Assembly (NCBI RefSeq): GCF_001434115.1
Contig: NZ_AZDW01000001.1
Span: 1-55,774, forward strand
DNA: 55,774 bases
DNA from: Levilactobacillus zymae DSM 19395
Lineage (GTDB): Bacteria; Bacillota; Bacilli; Lactobacillales; Lactobacillaceae
Reading direction: 5' to 3'
The notes under the pieces are model-generated. The model was given only the letters and a program-made list of their open reading frames with translations, was not told where the DNA came from and did no database searches. Made by a program: the position numbers and the translations under genes. Shown here piece by piece: positions 3,677 to 14,237 of the stretch (position 1 is the stretch's first letter; each line of letters opens with the position of its first letter).

Positions 3677-4967
3677 GGTGGCCCCCCTTGAACGCCGCGG
3701 TCAAGGCGTGACCCGGCAACGGCTCGGGGAAGTGGACCCCCAGTAGCCGTGCGAACGTCGGCGCCTCGTCCACTAACGCCGCGTCGTCGATGGTTTGGCC
3801 CGCCTTGATGGCCGGACCGGATAAGACCAGCGTGGTCCGATAATCCGGTTTGTCCGGGTCGTAACCGTGGACCCCGTGATAGCGGTCCGGCGTCCCCAGG
3901 CTGGCAGGGTCGACGGCCTCCACCACGGCCGGGCGGTTGGTCTCGTCGGTAAAGTAGTAGCCGGCCTTAGCTTCGACCAACCACTGGCAGTGCGGGTCGG
4001 CCCCGCGTTGTGCCGCTTCGGCGCCGCTGTAGATTGCTTGGACTCCCGGCGTTGTGGCCAGAAGTTCCTTTAAATGTTGGCCGTCCGCGAAGTTGCGGGT
4101 GTAGACGTAGGTGCACCCGTCACAGGACTTGGCCCAGACGTGCCAGTCGTTTTTGACCGTGCCCTCCTTGGTCGGCGTCAACCAGCCCCGTTGCGCGAAG
4201 GCCTGGTTCAAATGGATCATGTGATCGACGTTGATCTGGTAATGGTCCCCCAAGACCGCGAAGTTGGTCTCGCTAAAGGTCCCGGCCGCGATTGTGGCGT
4301 CGATCAACTTACCGACGCGCGCGTCTAAGCGTTTCAACGCCGCCATGGCTTCGGTCGAACGCACCCCGTACCGGTGGCGCATGCTATCCATGTCGACCAA
4401 GTGGATCAACGTGAGGGCTGGCTGCTTGTGATACAGCGTGTCGACCGCACAGGCGGTGATGAAATCGTCGAGCTCGGGTTGCTGGATACCGCGGCGCAAG
4501 TGACCGTATTTCTGGTTCATTCGCAACAGGAAGGCCGGACTGCTGGCCTTCAGTGACACCAGGACTTGGTTGGTCCAAATCCGGTTGGGAAAGATCTCGG
4601 CCAGGTTATAACTGATACGACTGCCCGCGGTGACCGGCCACAAAAAGGCCGCCGTCTTGCGGTGCTGTTGGCGCACCAGGTCGTATAAGGTCGGCACCTT
4701 GACGTCGCGTTGGTACCAGTACCAATCCGGCGAGCGCCGTTGCGGTTGTAATTTAGTGTTATTGATGATGCCGTGTTCTCGCGGGTACTGGCCCGTAATA
4801 ATGGTGGTATGGGACGGGTAGGTCAGCGTGGGGTAGATGCCCCGCACCCGCTTGACCCGCGTACCGGTGACCACTAACCGCCGTAAGTTCGGCAATTCGT
4901 CGAGGTGCTCATCGAGATCCCGACTGCCCATCGCGTCTAACGAAATGACGACTAATCGTTGCTGAAT
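3663..4967 (-). CDS. Alkaline phosphatase-superfamily phosphodiesterase (NPP-like), probable ATT start
   Basis: The protein belongs to the type I phosphodiesterase/nucleotide pyrophosphatase group. It has PTLTYPSH near residue 46 (nucleophilic Thr and metal ligands), DMDSMRH, LGDHY and a late GVHGYDP. The first ATG (4931) falls after the invariant metal-binding Asp of the VVISLDAMG strand. The reading frame stays open 12 codons upstream to a point just after AAGGAG, and the only initiator-like codon there is ATT at 4967, about 9 nt from the Shine-Dalgarno. No ATG, GTG or TTG exists in frame before the upstream TGA. I therefore place the start at 4967 (434 residues). The Shine-Dalgarno overlaps the TAA of the marR gene (TAAGGAG), and the 3' end overlaps the transporter gene. 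The substrate is unknown. Confidence 0.75.
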   Translation of the reverse strand: MQQRLVVISLDAMGSRDLDEHLDELPNLRRLVVTGTRVKRVRGIYPTLTYPSHTTIITGQYPREHGIINNTKLQPQRRSPDWYWYQRDVKVPTLYDLVRQQHRKTAAFLWPVTAGSRISYNLAEIFPNRIWTNQVLVSLKASSPAFLLRMNQKYGHLRRGIQQPELDDFITACAVDTLYHKQPALTLIHLVDMDSMRHRYGVRSTEAMAALKRLDARVGKLIDATIAAGTFSETNFAVLGDHYQINVDHMIHLNQAFAQRGWLTPTKEGTVKNDWHVWAKSCDGCTYVYTRNFADGQHLKELLATTPGVQAIYSGAEAAQRGADPHCQWLVEAKAGYYFTDETNRPAVVEAVDPASLGTPDRYHGVHGYDPDKPDYRTTLVLSGPAIKAGQTIDDAALVDEAPTFARLLGVHFPEPLPGHALTAAFKGGHHEAD

Positions 4968-4980
4968 ATGACTTCACTCC

Positions 4981-5412
4981 TTACTTCACAGACATGGTCC
5001 GTTGCCGGTCCATGCTTTTGGCTAACCGGTTCAATAAGATCTGTAACAGGTTCCGCTCGTCGGCCGACCAGTGCTCGAAAACCTGATCCGCCAACGCTTC
5101 AAAGGCGGTGTTGATGGCCGCCGCGGTCTCGGTCCCCGTGGCGGTAATGGTGTACACCAATTGGCGTTTGTCCCGCCCGATGGCTTCCTTGGTGACCATC
5201 TCCTTGGTCACCAAGCCCTTGAGTTGCCGACTGAGCGTCGACGTGTCTAAGCGGGTCTGTTGGGCGAGGATCTCTTGGGTGTTGGCCCCTTCACCGATCT
5301 GGTCCAAAAGTTGCCACTCCGACACCGTTAAATGGTATTGCTTGGCCATCCGCTGCAACAGGGTCTGCTGCGCCTTGGTGACCGTCATTAAGGCTGCTAG
5401 ACTGGATTTCAA
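4981..5412 (-). CDS. MarR family transcriptional regulator
   Basis: A 143-residue winged-helix repressor. The recognition region LDTSTLSRQLKGLVTKEMV is followed by a wing containing RDKRQLVYTIT. The start is TTG at 5412, with AAGGAG upstream; no nearer ATG fits. It is the first gene of the unit marR-phosphatase-transporter. An imperfect palindrome overlaps its own -10 box, so autoregulation is likely. MarR proteins usually respond to a small aromatic or oxidising ligand; which one applies here cannot be read from the sequence. Confidence 0.85.
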   Translation of the reverse strand: MKSSLAALMTVTKAQQTLLQRMAKQYHLTVSEWQLLDQIGEGANTQEILAQQTRLDTSTLSRQLKGLVTKEMVTKEAIGRDKRQLVYTITATGTETAAAINTAFEALADQVFEHWSADERNLLQILLNRLAKSMDRQRTMSVK

Positions 5413-5429
5413 CTGCCCTCACTCCTTTG

Positions 5430-5464
5430 GTTGCATTATACAACGGACTGATTGGCCGTCACAA
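5430..5464 (-). promoter_or_regulatory. marR promoter with overlapping palindrome
   Basis: On the minus strand a -35 TTGTGA (5459-5464) and a -10 TATAAT (5435-5440) are separated by 18 nt. A 15 bp imperfect palindrome (12 of 15 positions symmetric, arms GTTG/CAAC) at 5430-5444 covers the -10 box and is the best candidate for the MarR operator. Confidence 0.6.
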
Positions 5465-5512
5465 GCACTAATTCGGCCAGTCCTGAGGAAAGTTTTTGGC
5501 GAGGAAACTTCT

Positions 5513-5540
5513 TTGCGCTTTAGGGCCACAATCGCTATAC
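5513..5540 (+). promoter_or_regulatory. Probable rqcH promoter
   Basis: TTGCGC and TATACT are separated by 16 nt, giving a leader of about 155 nt before rqcH. Nothing else was recognised in 5465-5704. Confidence 0.4.
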
Positions 5541-5704
5541 TTTAAGATGTATTGCTTTTTTGAACGTCTATGGACCGCGGCATTGCGCAGCGTCGCTCGG
5601 GGGGATCACGCCGGGGAAAGTTTCTCGCCGCTCAACCTCGCCAACCGACTGCCGTGAGCCGCCCCCTTTAACCCAAAATCAACTCTCTAGAAAGGTGTGA
5701 TTCG

Positions 5705-7423
5705 ATGTCCTTTGATGGGTCCTTCACCCACGCCATGGTCCACGAGCTCCAACAAACCGTGACCACTGGCCGGGTCAGCAAAATTAACCAACCCTACGCC
5801 AACGAGGTGGTCCTGACCATTCGGGCCAACGGGCATAATTACCCGATCCTTTTGTCGGCCAACCCGACTTACGCGCGGATCCAAGTCACCGAAATTCCGT
5901 ACGTTAATCCCCCGGTTCCCACGAACTTTACCATGATCCTGCGTAAATACCTGCAGGGCGCGATCTTAAAGGGCGTCACCCAGGCCGCTAACGACCGGGT
6001 GGTCCACCTGAACTTCACATCCCGTAACGAATTAGGGGATCAACAGGAACTGCATTTAATCATTGAAATCATGGCCCGTCACAGTAACGTAATCTTAGTC
6101 GACCAGGCCAGCGGCAAGATCCTCGACGCCATCAAACACGTCGGCTCCGACCAGAACCGTTACCGGCTACTGCTTCCCGGCGCCCAGTACATCACCCCGC
6201 CCAAGCAAGACCTCGACGATCCGTTCGCCGGACCACGGGCCGACTTAGCGGCGACCATCCGTGAATTTCCCAACCGCGACGTGTTAGCCGGTACCCTGCA
6301 GCATCAGTACCAGGGCCTCGGCAAGGACACCGCCGCCGCACTGGCCAGCGCCCTACACCAACCCGGCGACGCCAACGCGCACTTCACGGCGTTCTTCGCG
6401 CACTTCGATGCCCCGCAACCCACGCTGACCATCTCGCCGAAGGGCAAGACCAGTTTCACGGCCTTCCCGTACCCGACCGAGGGTCAGCAGCAGACCGCCA
6501 CGACCCTCAGCCAATTGCTCGACACCTACTACCAGGACAAGGCCGAACGGGACCGGGTCCAGCAACAAGGCAGCGTCCTGATCCGGGTGGTCCGCAACGA
6601 GTTGAAGAAGAACCGCAACAAGTTGAAGAAGTTACAACGCACCCTAGCCGAAACGGAAAACGCCGACGAATACCGGGTCAAGGGTGAAATCCTGACCACC
6701 TACCTGTACCAGGTGAAGCGCGGTGACACATCTGTGACACTGCCGAACTTCTACGACCAAGAAAAGCCACTGAAAATCGCCCTGTCGAACCAGCTATCGC
6801 CCAATCAAAACGCCCAGAAGTATTTTAAACGGTACCAAAAGGCCAAAAACGCGGTCAGTTACGTGACCACGCAGATTGAGCAGACCCAGGCCAACGTCGA
6901 CTACTTCGACAACATCATGGCCCAGATCGAACTGGCCGCCCCCAAAGACCTGATCGATATTCGCTTGGAACTCCAACAAGGGGGTTACCTGCGCGATCAC
7001 GACCACCAAAAGAAGGCCAAGAAGCGGCGGAAGCAGCAGATCAGTAAGCCCGACCAATTCACGGCCAGCGACGGCACCAAGATTTCCGTGGGGAAAAACA
7101 ACCTGCAAAACGACAAGTTGACCCTGCACACGGCCAAGCGCACCGATATCTGGTTGCACGTCAAGGACATGCCGGGCTCCCACGTGATCGTTCACGCCGC
7201 CGACCCCAGCGAGCAGACCATTCTGGAAGCGGCGAACCTGGCCGCTTACTTCAGTAAGGCCCGCGCGTCCAGCACCGTGCCGGTGGATTACGTGCCGGTC
7301 AAGCGCATCCATAAACCCAACGGCGCCAAACCCGGTTTCGTGATTTTCACCGGGCAAAAGACGGTCTTCGTGACCCCCGAAAGCGCCCTGGTCGACCAAT
7401 TAACGGCGAACAATACGAAGTAA
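5705..7423 (+). CDS. rqcH: Ribosome quality control factor RqcH (NFACT, FbpA/Rqc2 family)
   Basis: A 572-residue protein with the full NFACT layout. The NFACT-N domain starts MSFDGSFTHAMVHEL, a helix-hairpin-helix region and a long coiled coil follow (about 285-400), and a C-terminal NFACT-R domain carries LTLHTAKRTDIWLHVKDMPGSHV. RqcH binds peptidyl-tRNA-blocked 50S subunits and directs addition of alanine tails that mark the nascent chain for degradation. Older annotations call it fibronectin-binding protein. AAAGGTGTGA precedes the ATG. It converges on carB across a shared terminator. In Bacillus its homologue also lies just beyond the pyr operon, so the position is ancestral. Confidence 0.93.
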   Translation: MSFDGSFTHAMVHELQQTVTTGRVSKINQPYANEVVLTIRANGHNYPILLSANPTYARIQVTEIPYVNPPVPTNFTMILRKYLQGAILKGVTQAANDRVVHLNFTSRNELGDQQELHLIIEIMARHSNVILVDQASGKILDAIKHVGSDQNRYRLLLPGAQYITPPKQDLDDPFAGPRADLAATIREFPNRDVLAGTLQHQYQGLGKDTAAALASALHQPGDANAHFTAFFAHFDAPQPTLTISPKGKTSFTAFPYPTEGQQQTATTLSQLLDTYYQDKAERDRVQQQGSVLIRVVRNELKKNRNKLKKLQRTLAETENADEYRVKGEILTTYLYQVKRGDTSVTLPNFYDQEKPLKIALSNQLSPNQNAQKYFKRYQKAKNAVSYVTTQIEQTQANVDYFDNIMAQIELAAPKDLIDIRLELQQGGYLRDHDHQKKAKKRRKQQISKPDQFTASDGTKISVGKNNLQNDKLTLHTAKRTDIWLHVKDMPGSHVIVHAADPSEQTILEAANLAAYFSKARASSTVPVDYVPVKRIHKPNGAKPGFVIFTGQKTVFVTPESALVDQLTANNTK

Positions 7424-7438
7424 ACCGACAGCAACGTT

Positions 7439-7478
7439 AAAAGGCATCAACCCGCTCAAGTGCGAGTTGATGCCTTTT
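7439..7478. terminator. Bidirectional terminator between rqcH and carB
   Basis: A 13 bp perfect stem (AAAAGGCATCAAC/GTTGATGCCTTTT) has A- and T-runs on both sides and lies between convergent stop codons. Confidence 0.85.
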
Positions 7479-7490
7479 TGTATTTAGCAA

Positions 7491-10064
7491 TTAAATCGTG
7501 CGGTTGATAATTCGGTCGAGTTCGGCCGTATCACTCAGGTTGTTGAGCTTTAAGGCCTCGCTGGAGCCAAAGGCGATCGTCGCGCCCACTTCCTGGTCCG
7601 TGGTGCCGGGCCGGTTCAAGACGTGCAACTGCTGGAACGGAAAGGCCGCGTTCATCAAAGCGACCCGTTTACTATTCAGGTCGATCTTGATGGTCGCCAG
7701 TTCGGCAGCGTCCAACGTTTCGATGTGTTGCCGCGTTAGCATCCGCACCCAGTTGATCCCGGTGACCTTACTGAGAAAGGCCATCTCGGTCAGCCGCGTG
7801 GGCCGCGTCCCGACGCAGACTAACTGCTTGGACGTGGCGCTCTTGGGCGCGAACAGGACCTGGACCATCCCGCGGACCTGGCGTTCGCTGACGGCCTTTT
7901 TCGCCGCCTCGACCAGGTTCAGTCGCTGGGCCTTGGGGAGTTCCGCCGGCATCCGGAAGGCCGTGATCTGGGCTAAGTTCTGGGTCATCCCCGGGGCGAT
8001 CAGGTCCATCACCCCGATGGCGACCTTCTCCTGCTCGTGGACGAACAGGCTGACCCCAATGGTGGCCATCTTAGGCAGCTGATCGGCGGTCTCCTGGTCC
8101 GGCGGCAGGACGTGCAGGTTCAAGTCGAGTTTCTTAAGCTCGCGCGTCAGGTAGTGCCGGTTCCCCGGTACGATGACGATGTCGGGGTGTTCCACGTGGA
8201 TGACGTTGAGCACGTCGCCGAGTTGAATCGGGTCGACGTACTGTTTGTCGGAAAACTCGGGCGCCACCCCGACCGCATTGGGGTTGGTGTTCATCAAAAT
8301 GGTGTGGTAGCCCGCGCGCTTCAGCTGTTTGAGCATCTCGGTGGTGAAGTACTCGGCCGCCGAGTTGGGCCCCAGCTGGTTACCGCCCCGGCCCAAGACC
8401 AGCGCGGTCCGGTCGCCGAGCGGTTGACTTTCGTTTTCGTATTCAAACGTACTGTAGTACCCGCTGGCGTCCTCGGGGAATTCCCCCGCCGTGGGTTCGA
8501 TCATCTTGTAGGTCGGTTGAATCTTGGCCTGCGTCGACAGCCGCCGAATCTCAGCGGTATCGGTCTGCCAGATGCGGGCAATCATCCCGTCCCCGAAACC
8601 GTAATACCGCGCTCGTTTCAGCGTCGCCACGTCCAAGGGATTCTCCTGAATCTGCTTTTCGATGGTCAACAGGTGTTGGAGTTTAACGAAATAAAACGGA
8701 TCGATTTTGGTCAGTTCGCTGAGCTCGGCCGGGGAATACCCGCGCCGCAGCGCTTCGATCAGAACCAAGATGCGGTTGGCCAACGGGTGGATCAGCTGGC
8801 TGATCATTTCGCCGTCGGTTAGATTGCTGACGGACGGCAAAACGTCTCGCGGTGAGAACTGCGAACTGCGGACCGACTTGAGCATGGCCTCTTCGACCGA
8901 GCGCCCGATGCCCACGGTCGAGCCGACCGCCTTCATCGCCGTGTCCAGGTGCTGGTCCGCATCGGGGACCTCCTGGAACGGCCAGAGCGGGATGCGCACG
9001 CTGATGTGGTCGTTCATGGGTTCCATGATGGCCGTTTGCTTGACGTACCGGCTGGGGAGCTTGACGTCGACCAGCCGTTGGCCCAACAAGAGTTCCCCGG
9101 TCACGATGGCCACGGGATAGCCCACGGTCCGGGCCGCTAACGCCACGCCGCGCGTGAAGTACGGCGCGACCTTGGTCACGTAGAAGTGCTGGTTAGCCGG
9201 ATTCAACGCGAAATGCACGTGTAAGATGCCCACCACGTTGAGTTCCGTGGCGATCCGAAAAGTCGCATCCCGCAAGTCCTGGTACTCCCGGTCGTTTAAG
9301 GTCTGCGGCGGACTCAAGACGATGGAGTCGCCGGAATGGATCCCAATGGGGTCGACGTTTTCCAGCCCGCTGATCAGCAGTTCCGTGTCGACGCGGTCGC
9401 GAATGGCGACCATTTCGATTTCCTTATAGCCGACCACGCTGCGTTCCAGGGTACACTGGTCGAAGCGCGACTGCTGGAAACCCTGACTCAGCGCCGTCAA
9501 CATGTCGTCGACGTTTTCGCAGATGGTCCGGTTGGTATCCACGCGCGGGGCGACCGGTTTGACGATCAGCGGAAAGCCGATTGCCTCGACTAGGCCCAAC
9601 GCCTCGTCTTCGGTCTGGACGACCTGCGCTTCGATGACCGGTTCGTGAATTTCTTTTAAGGTGGCGTTTAACGCCGCCGGATTATTGATTTGTTCTAAGG
9701 TACTGGTGGGCATGCCCAAGACGGCGACTTCGTAGCGGCCCAAATCCCCGTTTTCCTGGAGCTCCTGGGCGATCCGTAGCCCCCGTAGGCCCCCCAACGT
9801 GGGTAAAATCGCGTCGGGATGGTCCTTTTCCAAGATGTGGCGCACGTTAGCCGTGGTGACGGCCTGGACGTACATGTTGGTGGGTTGGATCTCCTCTAAG
9901 GCGACCGAGAAGGGATTGTTATCGATGACTAGTGTACGGACCCCGTGCTTCTTAAACTCGGTCAAAATCTGCACGGTGGCACTATCTAGCTCGGTCTCGT
10001 GACCAATCTCGGTCGGCCCACTGCCAATAATTAAGACTTTTTGTAACTGATCCCAGTTTTGCAA
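7491..10064 (-). CDS. carB: Degenerate carbamoyl phosphate synthetase large-chain homologue (probable pseudoenzyme)
   Basis: The 857-residue protein aligns along its length with CarB (usually about 1060 residues) but lacks key parts. In the first ATP-grasp half the glycine-rich loop (GGTGGG in the family) is replaced by PRVDTNRTI at 173-181. The metal ligands that are Glu and Asn in E. coli CarB (299, 301) are K298 and A300, and the Gln of NVQFA is H284. In the second half the pre-ATP-grasp region is present (from about 553), but about 80 residues of the ATP-binding subdomain are missing. The ligand Glu/Asn pair is C750/G752. The C-terminal allosteric (MGS-like) domain is absent. The frame is intact, codon use matches the neighbours, and the gene starts 2 bp after carA. 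It is unlikely to make carbamoyl phosphate. Residue correspondences were aligned by eye. Confidence 0.85.
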   Translation of the reverse strand: MQNWDQLQKVLIIGSGPTEIGHETELDSATVQILTEFKKHGVRTLVIDNNPFSVALEEIQPTNMYVQAVTTANVRHILEKDHPDAILPTLGGLRGLRIAQELQENGDLGRYEVAVLGMPTSTLEQINNPAALNATLKEIHEPVIEAQVVQTEDEALGLVEAIGFPLIVKPVAPRVDTNRTICENVDDMLTALSQGFQQSRFDQCTLERSVVGYKEIEMVAIRDRVDTELLISGLENVDPIGIHSGDSIVLSPPQTLNDREYQDLRDATFRIATELNVVGILHVHFALNPANQHFYVTKVAPYFTRGVALAARTVGYPVAIVTGELLLGQRLVDVKLPSRYVKQTAIMEPMNDHISVRIPLWPFQEVPDADQHLDTAMKAVGSTVGIGRSVEEAMLKSVRSSQFSPRDVLPSVSNLTDGEMISQLIHPLANRILVLIEALRRGYSPAELSELTKIDPFYFVKLQHLLTIEKQIQENPLDVATLKRARYYGFGDGMIARIWQTDTAEIRRLSTQAKIQPTYKMIEPTAGEFPEDASGYYSTFEYENESQPLGDRTALVLGRGGNQLGPNSAAEYFTTEMLKQLKRAGYHTILMNTNPNAVGVAPEFSDKQYVDPIQLGDVLNVIHVEHPDIVIVPGNRHYLTRELKKLDLNLHVLPPDQETADQLPKMATIGVSLFVHEQEKVAIGVMDLIAPGMTQNLAQITAFRMPAELPKAQRLNLVEAAKKAVSERQVRGMVQVLFAPKSATSKQLVCVGTRPTRLTEMAFLSKVTGINWVRMLTRQHIETLDAAELATIKIDLNSKRVALMNAAFPFQQLHVLNRPGTTDQEVGATIAFGSSEALKLNNLSDTAELDRIINRTI

Positions 10065-10066
10065 CT

Positions 10067-11140
10067 CTATCCCTCCCGTGAGGTCATCGCTTCCATAAAT
10101 TCATCGAAGAGGTCGCGACTTTCGTGGGGACCCGGGGCCCCGTCCGCAAAAAACTGTACGGAGAAGGCCGGAAAATCCCGGTGACGCAAGCCCTGCACGG
10201 TCCCGTCGATCAGATCCACGTAGGTGGTGATCAACCGGTCGCGGTCGATGGACTTCGCTAGCACCGCGTACCCCTGTCCCTGGGTCGCGTAGATGACGTC
10301 GTTGGTGATGATGCGGCGAATCGGGTGGCTACTGCCGTGGTATTCCACCGGTAGCGCCGTTAATTCCGCGCCGTTGGCCAGGGCGAACAACTCGTGGCCC
10401 AGGCCGATCGCAAATAGCGGAATCTCGGCTTGGACCTCGCGAATCATGTCTAAGACCCCGGTCCCCAGGTCTAACGGCGACCCCGGTCCCGTGGACAGCA
10501 GTACACCATCCGGGTCCAGGTTCAAGACGTCCTGGGCGCTGGCCGTCCACGGTAAGACCGTGACGTTGCAGCGCCGTTCGGACAATTGACGCAAGATTCC
10601 GTGTTTCAACCCAAAATCGATGACCACCACGTTCTTCCCGGTATCCGGGTTGGGATACGGCTTGGGCGTGGCGACCTGGTCGACTTGGCGGTTGGTCAGC
10701 ACCGTGGCGTTCAACTGGTCGAACGCGTGCGCGTCGGCCACGTCGACGATACTGCCCTTCATCGGCCCCGCCTGGCGGAGCTTGCGAATCAGGTGGCGCG
10801 TATCGATGCCGCTGATGCCGGGGATGTTGTGCTGCTGGAGAAATTCGTCGAGCGACAGCCGGGATAACCGGTTCGTCGAGATATTGGTCAAGTCGCGCAC
10901 GACCATCCCCTTAGCCGTGGGCAGGATGGATTCGTAACTATCGTGGTTGATGCCCACGTTGCCGATGGCCGGCTGCGCAAAGATGATGATCTGGTTGTGG
11001 TAAATCTGGTCGGTGATGGTTTCTTGATAGCCCAAAAGGTTCAGGTTAAAAATGACTTCACCGCTCGTGGTTGCCCCGGCGCCGAACCCTTCACCCGCGT
11101 AAGCCGAACCGTCTTCTAAAATTAAATAACGTTTTGCCAT
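10067..11140 (-). CDS. carA: Degenerate carbamoyl phosphate synthetase small-chain homologue (glutaminase-dead)
   Basis: At 357 residues it has the normal CarA length. The N-terminal CarA-specific domain is well kept (LEDGSAYAGEGFGA, IGNVGIN, GISGIDTRHLIRKLR). In the class I glutaminase domain the catalytic Cys of the GICLGHQ motif is G246 (FAIGLGHE), and the catalytic His and Glu of the family HPE motif are F331 and D333 (VQFFADGAPGP). The substrate-site stretch that is normally SQNHG reads TQGQG. Glutamine hydrolysis should therefore be impossible. AAAGGGG precedes the ATG. It follows pyrR by 31 bp and precedes carB by 2 bp. Known CarA proteins channel ammonia to CarB; here both partners are altered together. 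Confidence 0.87.
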   Translation of the reverse strand: MAKRYLILEDGSAYAGEGFGAGATTSGEVIFNLNLLGYQETITDQIYHNQIIIFAQPAIGNVGINHDSYESILPTAKGMVVRDLTNISTNRLSRLSLDEFLQQHNIPGISGIDTRHLIRKLRQAGPMKGSIVDVADAHAFDQLNATVLTNRQVDQVATPKPYPNPDTGKNVVVIDFGLKHGILRQLSERRCNVTVLPWTASAQDVLNLDPDGVLLSTGPGSPLDLGTGVLDMIREVQAEIPLFAIGLGHELFALANGAELTALPVEYHGSSHPIRRIITNDVIYATQGQGYAVLAKSIDRDRLITTYVDLIDGTVQGLRHRDFPAFSVQFFADGAPGPHESRDLFDEFMEAMTSREG

Positions 11141-11171
11141 GCAAAATCGGCCCCTTTGTCTAGCTAGGTGC

Positions 11172-11795
<624 letters not shown>

Positions 11796-11825
11796 CTACC
11801 GGCAAACCCTTTTGATATTAAGTTT

Positions 11826-11854
11826 AGCATAAAAAAACTAAATGGCTTTGTCAA
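11826..11854 (-). promoter_or_regulatory. pyrR promoter
   Basis: TTGACA (11849-11854) and TATGCT (11826-11831) are spaced exactly 17 nt apart. The -35 box lies inside the last codons of rluD, so pyrR-carA-carB can be transcribed separately from lspA-rluD with a leader of about 115 nt. Confidence 0.7.
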
Positions 11855-12761
11855 CCGGCAATCCCGCTTGGCGCCGTAAGCGTTGAACGGTGTCGTGGAA
11901 AATCGGCGGCACCGGGCAGGTAAAGTCCAGTTGTTCGCCCGTACTAGGCTGCTTAAATCCCAGTTCGCGCGCGTGTAAGAATTGGCCGTGGCCCTTCAGG
12001 GTCTTCTTGGGCCCGTACAGCGGATCGCCGGCGACCGGATGGCCGATGTAGGCCAAATGAACGCGAATCTGGTGGGTCCGGCCGGTCTCTAGCCGACAGG
12101 CGATCAGGGTGTAGTCGCCGTAGCGTTCCAGCACCCGAAAATGGGTCACGGCGGGCCGCCCATCGGCCACGACGGCCTGCTTCTTGCGGTCCTTGGGCGA
12201 CCGGCCGAGCGGCGCGCGAATCACCCCTTCGTCTTCCTTAAAGTTCCCGTGGACGATGGCTAGATACTCGCGCAGGTTGGTCTTGGCGTGCAGTTGGTCG
12301 GAGAGGCTGTGGTGAGCGTGGTCGTTTTTGGCCACCATCAACAGGCCCGACGTGTCCTTGTCGATGCGGTGCACGATGCCGGGCCGCAGTTCCCCGTTGA
12401 TTTGCGACAAGGGACTGTGGTACAGCAGGGCGTTGACCAGCGTGTGGTTGGGGTGCCCCGGCGCGGGGTGGACCACCATCCCCTGGGGCTTATTGACCAC
12501 GATCACGTCGTCGTCTTCGTAGACGATGTCTAAGGGGATGTTCTCGGGCGTCAAATCGATCGGCTGCGGGTCCGGTAAGGCGATGTGGACCACCGCCCCC
12601 ACAGCTGCCACGTCCTTAGGCCGCACCGTTTGGCCGTCGACCGTGATCTGCCCGGCTTCGATGGCTGATTTAGCCTGCGACCGGGAAATCTCGGGTTCCT
12701 TGACCGCCACCAGCTTATCGAGCCGTAATTTTTGATCCACCGTAAACTCTTTAATGTCCAT
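11838..12761 (-). CDS. rluD: RluD-family 23S rRNA/tRNA pseudouridine synthase
   Basis: A 307-residue RluA/RluD-type enzyme. An N-terminal S4 RNA-binding domain (about 12-75) precedes the catalytic domain with HRIDKDTSGLLMVAK (catalytic Asp in the HRIDKDTSG motif) and the late RTHQIRVH motif. It converts specific uridines of structured RNA to pseudouridine. It is the Bacillus YlyB counterpart by position, following lspA by 2 bp and preceding pyrR. Confidence 0.93.
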   Translation of the reverse strand: MDIKEFTVDQKLRLDKLVAVKEPEISRSQAKSAIEAGQITVDGQTVRPKDVAAVGAVVHIALPDPQPIDLTPENIPLDIVYEDDDVIVVNKPQGMVVHPAPGHPNHTLVNALLYHSPLSQINGELRPGIVHRIDKDTSGLLMVAKNDHAHHSLSDQLHAKTNLREYLAIVHGNFKEDEGVIRAPLGRSPKDRKKQAVVADGRPAVTHFRVLERYGDYTLIACRLETGRTHQIRVHLAYIGHPVAGDPLYGPKKTLKGHGQFLHARELGFKQPSTGEQLDFTCPVPPIFHDTVQRLRRQAGLPVDKAI

Positions 12762-12763
12762 GT

Positions 12764-13231
12764 TTATTGGTTAGCCTCCCGTCGATCGGCCAGAAAGACG
12801 CCGATCATAATCAAGATGACCCCCACCGTCAGGCAGGAATCCGCAAAGTTAAAGATTGGAAAATTCACAAAGTCGAGTTGAAACATGTCGACCACGTAGC
12901 CCTGGGTCAGACGGTCGATGAAGTTACCGACCGTGCCGGCCATCATGCAGGCCAAGCCCAGTTCGTCGATCCAGTGGTCTTTTTGGTGCCGGTAGCGCCA
13001 GAAGAACCAGCCCATGACGCCTAGGGCCACGATGGCGATCACGGTAAAGAACCACATTTGGCCCTGTAAGATGCTCCAAGCCGCCCCGTCGTTACGCAAA
13101 TGGGTCAGCGAGAAGACCCCGTCGATGACCGGGTGCTGGCCCCCCAACGCAATGTTGGCCACCACCGCGTGCTTGATCAGTTGGTCGATCACGATCAACA
13201 CGATGATCAGAATGGAATCAAAAATTAGCAT
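12764..13231 (-). CDS. lspA: Lipoprotein signal peptidase II
   Basis: LspA cleaves the signal peptide of prolipoproteins at the lipobox Cys. The protein has four membrane segments and the two catalytic Asp motifs, TVGNFIDR and FNFADS. I choose ATG 13231 (155 residues, MLIFDSILII) because AAGGGGGG lies 10 nt before it. The upstream ATG at 13264 has no ribosome site and nearly coincides with the likely transcription start (TATACT at about 13274). It heads the lspA-rluD unit. The lipoprotein at 46.3 kb is one probable substrate. Confidence 0.92.
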   Translation of the reverse strand: MLIFDSILIIVLIVIDQLIKHAVVANIALGGQHPVIDGVFSLTHLRNDGAAWSILQGQMWFFTVIAIVALGVMGWFFWRYRHQKDHWIDELGLACMMAGTVGNFIDRLTQGYVVDMFQLDFVNFPIFNFADSCLTVGVILIMIGVFLADRREANQ

Positions 13232-13537
13232 GGGACCGAATCCCCCCTTTTTGAGTTTAGTCATTGGCTAAAAGTATACCAGAAAAACCGCCCCACCGCG
13301 GCCTTAACCTGGTAATTTTGTGGCTTAACTGGTCAATCGGTCCCCCGACGTGGCCGCCAGACCCGCCCGGCAGACCGGGGCCCGTTACCAAAGACGACTT
13401 TCACGACTGGCCGCACGACCGTATCCCCGGTGAAAACCGCTCACGCCGGGACCTGACGCGGTGTGCCCCGGTAAGCCCTGACCGACGATGTTCCCGGCAA
13501 CGTCCCCGTAAAAGTGAAAATTCTTGCAAGATGGCTT

Positions 13538-13564
13538 TATAATGTAAGCGCTTACTGTTATAAT
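13538..13564 (+). promoter_or_regulatory. Promoter region with CcpA cre-like site
   Basis: TGTAAGCGCTTACT at 13543-13556 contains a perfect 12 bp palindrome and matches the catabolite-responsive element consensus (TGWAARCGYTWNCW) closely. It lies between two TATAAT-like boxes (13538 and 13559) just before the flavin reductase gene, so carbon catabolite control is likely. The rest of 13232-13595 is GC-rich and shows no gene. Confidence 0.7.
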
Positions 13565-13595
13565 TAACTTATCGTTAAGAAAAGAGGAGTTATTA

Positions 13596-14237
13596 ATGAC
13601 TAAAGTATTAGTAATTTATGCTCACCCTGAAACGAAGACCTATTCAACGACTGATAAGTTCTACCAACAATTTATCACGGCGTACCGGACCGCCCACCCC
13701 GAAGACGAGATCGTCGAACACAACGTCTCGGAATACATGCCGTTCCCGTTGGATAAAATTGCCGTGGCCATCTATAACAAGGCCCTGGTCAACCAACCGT
13801 TGAACCCCGACGAAGAACGCTTCAAAGCTTCCCGGCAGGCCTGGATCGACGAATTCGTGTCCGCCGACAAATACGTCTTCGCCAACCCGATGTATAACCT
13901 ATTCGTGCCGACCGAAATGAAGAGCTACCTCGACATGGTCATGCAGATTCCCGACACCTTCCACTACACCAAGGAAGGCACCATGGCCGGCGCGTTAGCG
14001 GGCAAGAAGGCCATTCACCTGCAAACGTCTGGTGGCGACTACCACGGCACAGCGGGCGGCCCCGACATGAGTCAACTCGACTTAGGGCACCAGTACTTAC
14101 AGGCCGTCTTACACGTGATGGGCATCACCGACTTCACCGGCGTCTACGCCGAGGGGATGGACCACGACCCAGCCAACGCCCCCGACATCATGGCCAAGGC
14201 CTTTGCCCGCGCCGAGGATGCGGGTCGCAACTTCTAA
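13596..14237 (+). CDS. FMN-dependent NAD(P)H dehydrogenase / azoreductase-like flavodoxin-fold protein
   Basis: This 213-residue protein has the flavodoxin-like fold of the AzoR/NQO group. It has VLVIYAHPETKTYST at the N-terminus, FANPMYNLFVPTEMKSYLDM at the flavin site and TSGGDYHG near residue 150. Members move two electrons from NAD(P)H to quinones or azo compounds using FMN. GAGGAG precedes the ATG. It is a single gene with a cre-like site in its promoter and a strong terminator after it. The exact acceptor is unknown. Confidence 0.85.
   Translation: MTKVLVIYAHPETKTYSTTDKFYQQFITAYRTAHPEDEIVEHNVSEYMPFPLDKIAVAIYNKALVNQPLNPDEERFKASRQAWIDEFVSADKYVFANPMYNLFVPTEMKSYLDMVMQIPDTFHYTKEGTMAGALAGKKAIHLQTSGGDYHGTAGGPDMSQLDLGHQYLQAVLHVMGITDFTGVYAEGMDHDPANAPDIMAKAFARAEDAGRNF

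Follow-up and report, generated by a model that had tools for sequence, protein, structure and literature searches.

Levilactobacillus zymae and most genera of Lactobacillaceae carry a CarA-CarB pair without catalytic residues, a probable remnant of a pyr operon

The locus described here lies in a stretch of 55,774 nucleotides (nt) from Levilactobacillus zymae DSM 19395 (contig NZ_AZDW01000001.1, positions 1 to 55,774 of the forward strand), which is called the window as a whole, and it encodes homologues of CarA and CarB, the small and large subunits of carbamoyl-phosphate synthetase (CPS), behind pyrR. Copies without catalytic residues are written with an asterisk (CarA*, CarB*, carA*, carB*, and CarAB* for the pair). 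Genomes, fetched loci, genera, families and contigs of the source genome are numbered with the letters G, L, g, f and C, respectively. The three flanking genes were named from sequence and gene order, and lengths are given in amino acids (aa) or base pairs (bp).

7491..10064, minus strand: carB*, homologue of the CPS large subunit with 857 aa and a TTG start, in which the second ATP-grasp domain is shortened and the allosteric domain missing
10067..11140, minus strand: carA*, CPS small-subunit homologue, 357 aa, with Gly246 in place of Cys269 and Phe331 in place of His353
11172..11705, minus strand: pyrR, 31 bp upstream of carA*, in the position of PyrR2 of L. plantarum
11838..12761, minus strand: rluD-type pseudouridine synthase gene, 5' flank and marker of the ancestral pyr locus
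12764..13264, minus strand: lspA-type gene, 5' flank of the locus
5705..7423, plus strand: rqc2/fbpA-type gene, convergent, 3' flank in many mapped loci

The initial annotation described the two car frames as open and coupled behind pyrR, and this stands, with a gap of 2 bp between them and pyrR directly upstream. The pyrR gene was listed as an open reading frame with a TTG start at 11768, and its start is likely the ATG at 11705, since homology begins at residue 22 of the listed frame. The TTG start of carB*, a few bases past the carA* stop, is conserved in all 30 Levilactobacillus loci examined.

Residues of both subunits were scored by alignment to E. coli CarAB (from NC_000913), using catalytic positions known from the CPS literature. 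CarA* of the window has Gly246 for Cys269, Phe331 for His353, Ile for Ser47 and Glu for Gln273, which bears out the glutaminase losses first claimed at G246 and F331. D333, which had been counted as a third loss, has to be withdrawn, as Asp is also found there in the intact CarA of the source genome and in most intact Lactobacillaceae CarA examined. The first half of CarB* has lost R129 (Pro), the glycine loop, E299 (K298), N301 (A300), R303 (Y302), Q285 (His) and R169 (Lys), and has kept E215, G241, H243 and R306. In the second half E841 and N843 are replaced, R675 and R715 are deleted, and about 80 ATP-grasp residues are absent. The glycine loop and K298/A300 had been named correctly among these losses; the second-half ligands align at G752/R754 and not at C750/G752 as first stated, which leaves the conclusion unchanged. 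The alignment also confirms the shortening of the second ATP-grasp by about 80 residues and the absence of the allosteric domain, with 10 residues past E. coli position 936 in CarB* of the window against about 130 in intact CarB.

Scans with Pfam and NCBIfam models recognize CarA* as CPSase small chain with a GATase domain and CarB* as CPSase large chain D1, D2 and D3, in which the oligomerisation domain PF02787 is retained. CarA* scores above the small-subunit cut-offs (NF009475, 413 bits with a cut-off of 221; TIGR01368, 342 with 307), and CarB* stays under the curated large-subunit cut-offs (TIGR01369, 550 vs 1027 bits; NF003671, 527 vs 599). By its residues the window pair would not be a glutamine-dependent CPS, as the Cys-His pair of CarA and two intact ATP-grasp sites are absent. 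An ammonia-dependent CPS, in which a dead glutaminase is combined with an intact synthetase, would also be excluded for this locus, where the second half of CarB is broken in 103 of 103 sequences and the first half in 102 of 103. The combination of lost catalytic residues and purifying selection would place the pair among conserved pseudoenzymes.

Short-form CarB* proteins, which are 820-900 aa long, have conserved substitutions of their own. Among 33 that were compared, Gly179 of the loop is replaced by Arg in 31 and the metal ligand Glu299 by Lys or Arg in all 33; Y354H is found in 31 and T531P in 32, and E215 and H243 are kept in 32 and 31, respectively. These changes suggest a first site that was rebuilt without metal and possibly still holds an anion or a nucleotide. 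A linker motif at residues ~129-160 (HAFDQL...) was considered as a gain of CarA* and rejected; the intact CarA sequences L190, L192 and L193, which belong to the vertical lineage, have it too, so that it is ancestral and merely retained in CarA*.

Copies of CarB, aspartate carbamoyltransferase and PyrR were surveyed in 58 genomes, 35 of Levilactobacillus and 23 of other families. CarB* is present in all 35 Levilactobacillus genomes, where it is 84-100% identical and has no internal stop. Another CarB was found in only four of them (G000, G012, G013 and G021), which include the source genome, and the same four are the only ones with an aspartate carbamoyltransferase over the cut-off and a second PyrR match. 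CarAB* is consequently the sole CarAB found in 31 of the 35 genomes, one of which (G005) is 72% complete. The intact second carAB that had been suggested as a thing to look for in the source genome exists, in a pyrR-pyrB-pyrC-carA-carB-pyrD operon on contig C21. In G012, a close relative, there is one in-frame TAG in the match to its second carB (G012:C1:852235-854118), which is intact otherwise.

The ratio of nonsynonymous to synonymous substitution (dN/dS) was estimated by the Nei-Gojobori method, as medians over pairs with 0.1<dS<2, for 31 Levilactobacillus loci with 29-31 sequences per gene, two of the loci being labelled only Lactobacillus sp. The median is 0.020 for CarA* (331 of 465 pairs usable) and 0.047 for CarB* (98 of 465), and the neighbouring genes of the same loci give 0.032 (PyrR), 0.054 (RluD), 0.049 (Rqc2) and 0.089 (LspA), so that CarA* has the lowest value of the six genes. 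For CarA* and CarB*, 30 loci analysed earlier had given 0.019 and 0.048, respectively. Dead and intact copies could be compared in the same three genomes, with 0.012 vs 0.080 for CarA and 0.032 vs 0.055 for CarB. All these values are estimates, as the three-genome comparison is small and many synonymous distances are near saturation, and they are still far from neutral. CarA*-CarB* is under strong purifying selection in Levilactobacillus. The open CarB frames in 35 of 35 genomes, the low dN/dS and the residue counts strongly support the original view that both subunits are dead and nevertheless maintained.

The surroundings of the genes point to where the pair came from. A functional operon occupies the same place in five genera (g23, g32, g35, g86 and g93; loci L240, L241, L242, L244 and L245), with the gene order lspA-rluD-pyrR-(uraA-like)-pyrB-pyrC-carA-carB and rqc2 downstream in four of the five. 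Dead loci share these flanks and lack pyrB and pyrC. The uraA-like gene, the query frame of which is a Xan_ur_permease in Pfam, persists upstream of CarA in six of them. Context was counted for 152 distinct CarA sequences from frames of at least 330 aa, before the three dead loci of family f4 had entered the set. CarA with rluD or pyrR upstream and no pyrBC has Gly269 in 101 of 101 sequences and His353 in none of the 101, and CarA with pyrB or pyrC upstream has Cys269 in 41 of 41; where the context was unseen or of another kind, there are nine Cys and one Gly at this position. The large subunit follows the same division. At the locus without pyrBC (n=103) both halves of CarB are broken in 102, the second half only in one (L224), and none is fully complete, and CarB of pyr operons is complete at all 15 scored residues in 41 of 41. 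Eight CarB stand in other contexts: three with both halves broken (one a cut copy of the window's own), three complete and two incomplete in the second half, namely L001, which is cut by the locus end, and L221, which has Asp for E841.

Trees of CarA were built from several sets. With 36 dead and 26 intact sequences the dead ones form one clade (100/100), and a branch with SH-aLRT 90 in a tree of 96 rows has all 47 dead CarA of Lactobacillaceae on the same side. When the active-site columns and four long rows were removed (92 rows), two changes are needed and the AU test does not reject a single clade (p-AU 0.29); when three dead f4 CarA were added, the dead CarA of Lactobacillaceae need four changes and starred branches force at least two. 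Dead CarA might therefore have several origins, or reversals and transfers may have occurred. The intact operon CarA of the source genome belongs to a lineage other than that of CarA* in two trees. Taken together, gene order and residues give good support to the view that CarA*-CarB* is an in-place remnant of an ancestral Lactobacillaceae pyr operon and a conserved double pseudoenzyme.

A CarB*-profile survey of 397 Lactobacillaceae genomes, in which the 820-900 aa form was called at a best E <1e-230 (a threshold of our own), found this form in 21 of 40 genera, and residues were checked in at least one member of each. For the remaining 19 genera a CarA profile was applied to 27 genomes, two of them short-form controls and 25 from 17 of these genera, and one genome each was taken from g87 and g100. 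Twelve of the 19 carry such a dead pair (g19, g24, g25, g31, g37, g84, g85, g87, g88, g90, g97 and g100), seen in one to four genomes per genus; the stretch fetched for g100 ends before the rluD flank and has a PyrR match close upstream. The dead pair thus occurs in 33 of the 40 genera, each of which has members with an open CarA* frame. Only the intact operon was found in g23, g32, g35, g86 and g93 (one genome each), and only an intact CarA in g92.

Two loci indicate that the simultaneous loss of activity first proposed is too simple, even though both subunits are dead as a rule, since each keeps part of one subunit. CarB of L224 (G431, g88), which is 1056 aa long, keeps all eight first-half residues scored, with a dead second half and a dead CarA, and might be a half-active intermediate. 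CarA of L243 (G438, g95) keeps Cys269 and has Leu for His353, next to a full-length dead CarB; it is the only CarA match of its genome and may have come to the same end by a different route. In the L. plantarum genome G606 three CarA-CarB pairs are present (L220, L221 and L222), which are CarAB*, the intact pair of the pyr operon and a third pair (L221), the CarB of which is intact except for Asp in place of E841.

Dead pairs were also found in a second family. Among the 23 genomes of other families, 14 have a CarB frame of at least 1062 aa, six have no match and three (G037, G045 and G052) have only a frame of 583-591 aa. These three belong to genus g4 of family f4, in which other genomes have CarB frames of normal length, and their dead pairs are located as follows.

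L250 (G037), 4135-6992: dead pair
L251 (G052), 4319-7146: dead pair
L252 (G045), 5180-7998: dead pair

The f4 CarB lacks the first-site residues and stands beside a CarA with Gly269, with PyrR upstream in three of three loci and PyrB between in two of three. These two loci break the context rule given above, as PyrB is upstream of a Gly269 CarA. Aspartate carbamoyltransferase is present in all three genomes, although the 583-591 aa frame is their only CarB match. The dead f4 CarA are placed apart from an intact CarA of their own family (L137), and their linker motif resembles that of the Lactobacillaceae lineage. The same event may have arisen in this family as well, or have reached it.

In most loci mapped, pyrR is directly upstream of the dead pair, and this PyrR is the only one found in 31 of 35 Levilactobacillus genomes. 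Levilactobacillus genomes have one to three RNAs each that resemble the PyrR leader (E<=0.001), many of them under the Rfam gathering score. The source genome has three RF00515 matches, on C21, C17 and C35, all below that score. Downstream of ten leader loci, genes were named by eye as pyrFE (two loci), a deoxyribosyltransferase with an NCS1-type permease (five) and a uracil-type permease (three), and Pfam agrees with these names for eight downstream proteins scanned from six of the ten.

The pyruvate oxidase of G606 differs at one of 575 aligned residues from PDB 1pow, the L. plantarum enzyme. This genome has two PyrR matches, 62.6% identical to each other, of which one belongs to the pyr operon and the other lies immediately upstream of carA*. 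PyrR1 and PyrR2 of L. plantarum are reportedly 62% identical. The pyrR that adjoins carA* is therefore identified as pyrR2 from its position and its identity to PyrR1, and its gene lies about 34 nt upstream of carA* (spacing counted by eye). PyrR2 of L. plantarum is reported to respond to inorganic carbon (PMC3582564). A regulator tied to inorganic carbon is thus encoded beside a dead relative of a bicarbonate-using enzyme, and replacement of pyrR2 in L. plantarum could alter carA*B* expression.

CarA*-CarB* probably does a job other than catalysis, because its active sites are lost and selection on it is about as strict as on its working neighbours. The explanation to which we give slightly better than even chances is that a remnant of the pyr operon was kept as a non-catalytic, ligand-binding regulator, and confidence is lower for any single ligand that may be named. 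According to it, pyrB and pyrC would have been lost from the locus, carbamoyl-phosphate synthesis would have disappeared or passed to a second pyr operon, and CarA and CarB would have been kept as a non-catalytic complex. CarA* and CarB* would still form the CPS heterodimer, and the first ATP site of CarB*, with Gly179 replaced by Arg, Glu299 by Lys or Arg, and E215 and H243 kept, would bind a ligand without turnover, which may be a nucleotide or another CPS ligand such as bicarbonate, glutamine or UMP. The liganded complex would tune inorganic-carbon-dependent metabolism or the salvage of pyrimidines, and in many genera the adjoining PyrR would take part. A more specific and only tentative version, on the unlikely side, would make the dead CPS a non-catalytic sensor of CPS ligands (bicarbonate, glutamine or a nucleotide) in most Lactobacillaceae, from which the carbon response of L. 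plantarum PyrR2 would wholly or partly come.

Several observations weigh against a retained ligand-binding regulator. A PyrR match is absent in four of 28 genomes tested (G270, G388, G670 and G430, the last being 87% complete); a dead CarAB was seen in G270 (L231) and G430 (L239), and in G388 and G670 CarB* is known from the CarB-profile score alone. The g21 and g27 genomes examined have PyrR away from the CarAB* locus, and no PyrR leader RNA (RF00515) matches at E<=1 in positions 7000-14000 of the window. CarB* is split over four frames beside an open CarA* in Secundilactobacillus similis DSM 23365 (L078) and in a relative (L167/L181, G638), possibly by recent loss or an assembly problem, which indicates that CarB* can be lost. 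Beyond Levilactobacillus the dN/dS sample consists of CarA* of g29, with 0.020 from four usable pairs. The 18 other dead or odd CarB share few of the short-form substitutions, the remodelled basic residues being mostly absent from them. AlphaFold models have a mean pLDDT of 43 for CarA* and 55 for CarB*, too poor for a site or an interface, and any ligand or partner of the complex is putative.

Another possibility is that the fold was turned to a different reaction which does not need the CPS residues. In the three genomes compared, CarA* is more constrained than intact CarA, which would fit a new enzyme, and so would the conserved substitutions of the short-form CarB* (G179R, Y354H and T531P in 31, 31 and 32 of 33). 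However, neither ATP site nor the thiol nucleophile remains, and no residue set common to all dead CarB hints at a new active site, no structural search having been made, so that this alternative is considered unlikely.

The pair might also depend on the adjacent PyrR for all its action and, as a sensor, alter how PyrR binds its leader RNAs. This agrees with the position of pyrR, with the single PyrR of most Levilactobacillus genomes, with the PyrR-leader-like RNAs that genomes lacking CPS still have at pyrFE and at permease genes for nucleobases, with the dead pair beside PyrR in f4, and with the reported link of PyrR2 to inorganic carbon in L. plantarum (PMC3582564). An obligate PyrR partner is opposed by the dead CarAB of the PyrR-less G270 and G430, by G388 and G670, which also lack PyrR, and by PyrR being encoded elsewhere in the g21 and g27 genomes, which makes this a distinctly improbable account. 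The PyrR-linked sensor of the initial annotation is accordingly possible, and PyrR is not obligatory; since the f4 finding favours a PyrR link and the PyrR-less genomes oppose it, the standing of the explanations is unmoved.

A decoy or regulatory subunit, which would enter mixed oligomers with an active CPS, could rely on the retained oligomerisation domain PF02787, and two further pairs are available for it in L. plantarum G606. The short form lacks the allosteric domain, however, and CarAB* is kept in the 31 of 35 Levilactobacillus genomes without another CarB or an aspartate carbamoyltransferase over the cut-off, in a genus where its constraint is strong, so the decoy modulating an active enzyme elsewhere, as had been proposed, is disfavoured and very improbable. 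Decay into pseudogenes, to which the broken CarB* of S. similis and the lost active sites might point, is hardly credible and was rejected, as dN/dS is 0.02-0.05, CarB* frames are open in 35 of 35 Levilactobacillus genomes and CarA* is open in members of 33 genera. Intact orthologues at the same place, one sign by which simple decay was to be recognized, do exist in five genera; frameshifts or a dN/dS near 1 do not accompany them, and frames across the orthologues are open save for CarB* in the S. similis lineage.

CarAB* resembles E. coli CarAB (PDB 1bxr; PyrAA/PyrAB) in its homology over most of both subunits, gene order, coupling, and CPSase and oligomerisation domains. It differs from it in that CarA* lacks the Cys-His pair, CarB* lacks the metal ligands, the glycine loop and the phosphate-binding Arg, and the short-form CarB* has a shortened second ATP-grasp and no allosteric domain. 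Mitochondrial ammonia-dependent CPS I (PDB 5dot) has lost the glutaminase Cys, keeps both ATP-grasp sites and the allosteric domain, and is active. Loss of this Cys is common to both systems, and in CarAB* the large subunit is dead in addition. Pseudo-dihydroorotase domains are retained in pyrimidine multienzymes after loss of catalysis. Those are scaffold domains inside an active complex, whereas CarAB* is dead as an entire enzyme of two subunits, often in a cell that has no active CPS. With the PyrR1/PyrR2 system of L. plantarum it shares the position of pyrR; the published work concerns PyrR2, which is seen here to adjoin CarAB*. In searches of an open-access library no paper was found with a title or abstract on a dead CarAB in lactobacilli, or with a title on the pair adjoining pyrR2 (pyrAa2/pyrAb2).

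Single pseudoenzymes are common, and here an entire two-subunit synthetase is kept dead, in its original place, across most genera of a large family, more constrained than the working copy in the three genomes where both are measurable. As the CPS domains are present and CarA* is over the cut-offs, automatic annotation and metabolic models may wrongly credit cells with carbamoyl-phosphate synthesis. CarAB* also offers a new way in which PyrR2, inorganic carbon and pyrimidine metabolism might be connected in L. plantarum. Use of CarAB* as a marker of heterofermenters was considered and rejected, as full-length or 640-800 aa dead forms occur in genera with phosphofructokinase. Read by genus, a 6-phosphofructokinase match over the cut-off is absent in 19 of the 21 genera with the 820-900 aa form and in 2 of the 19 others.

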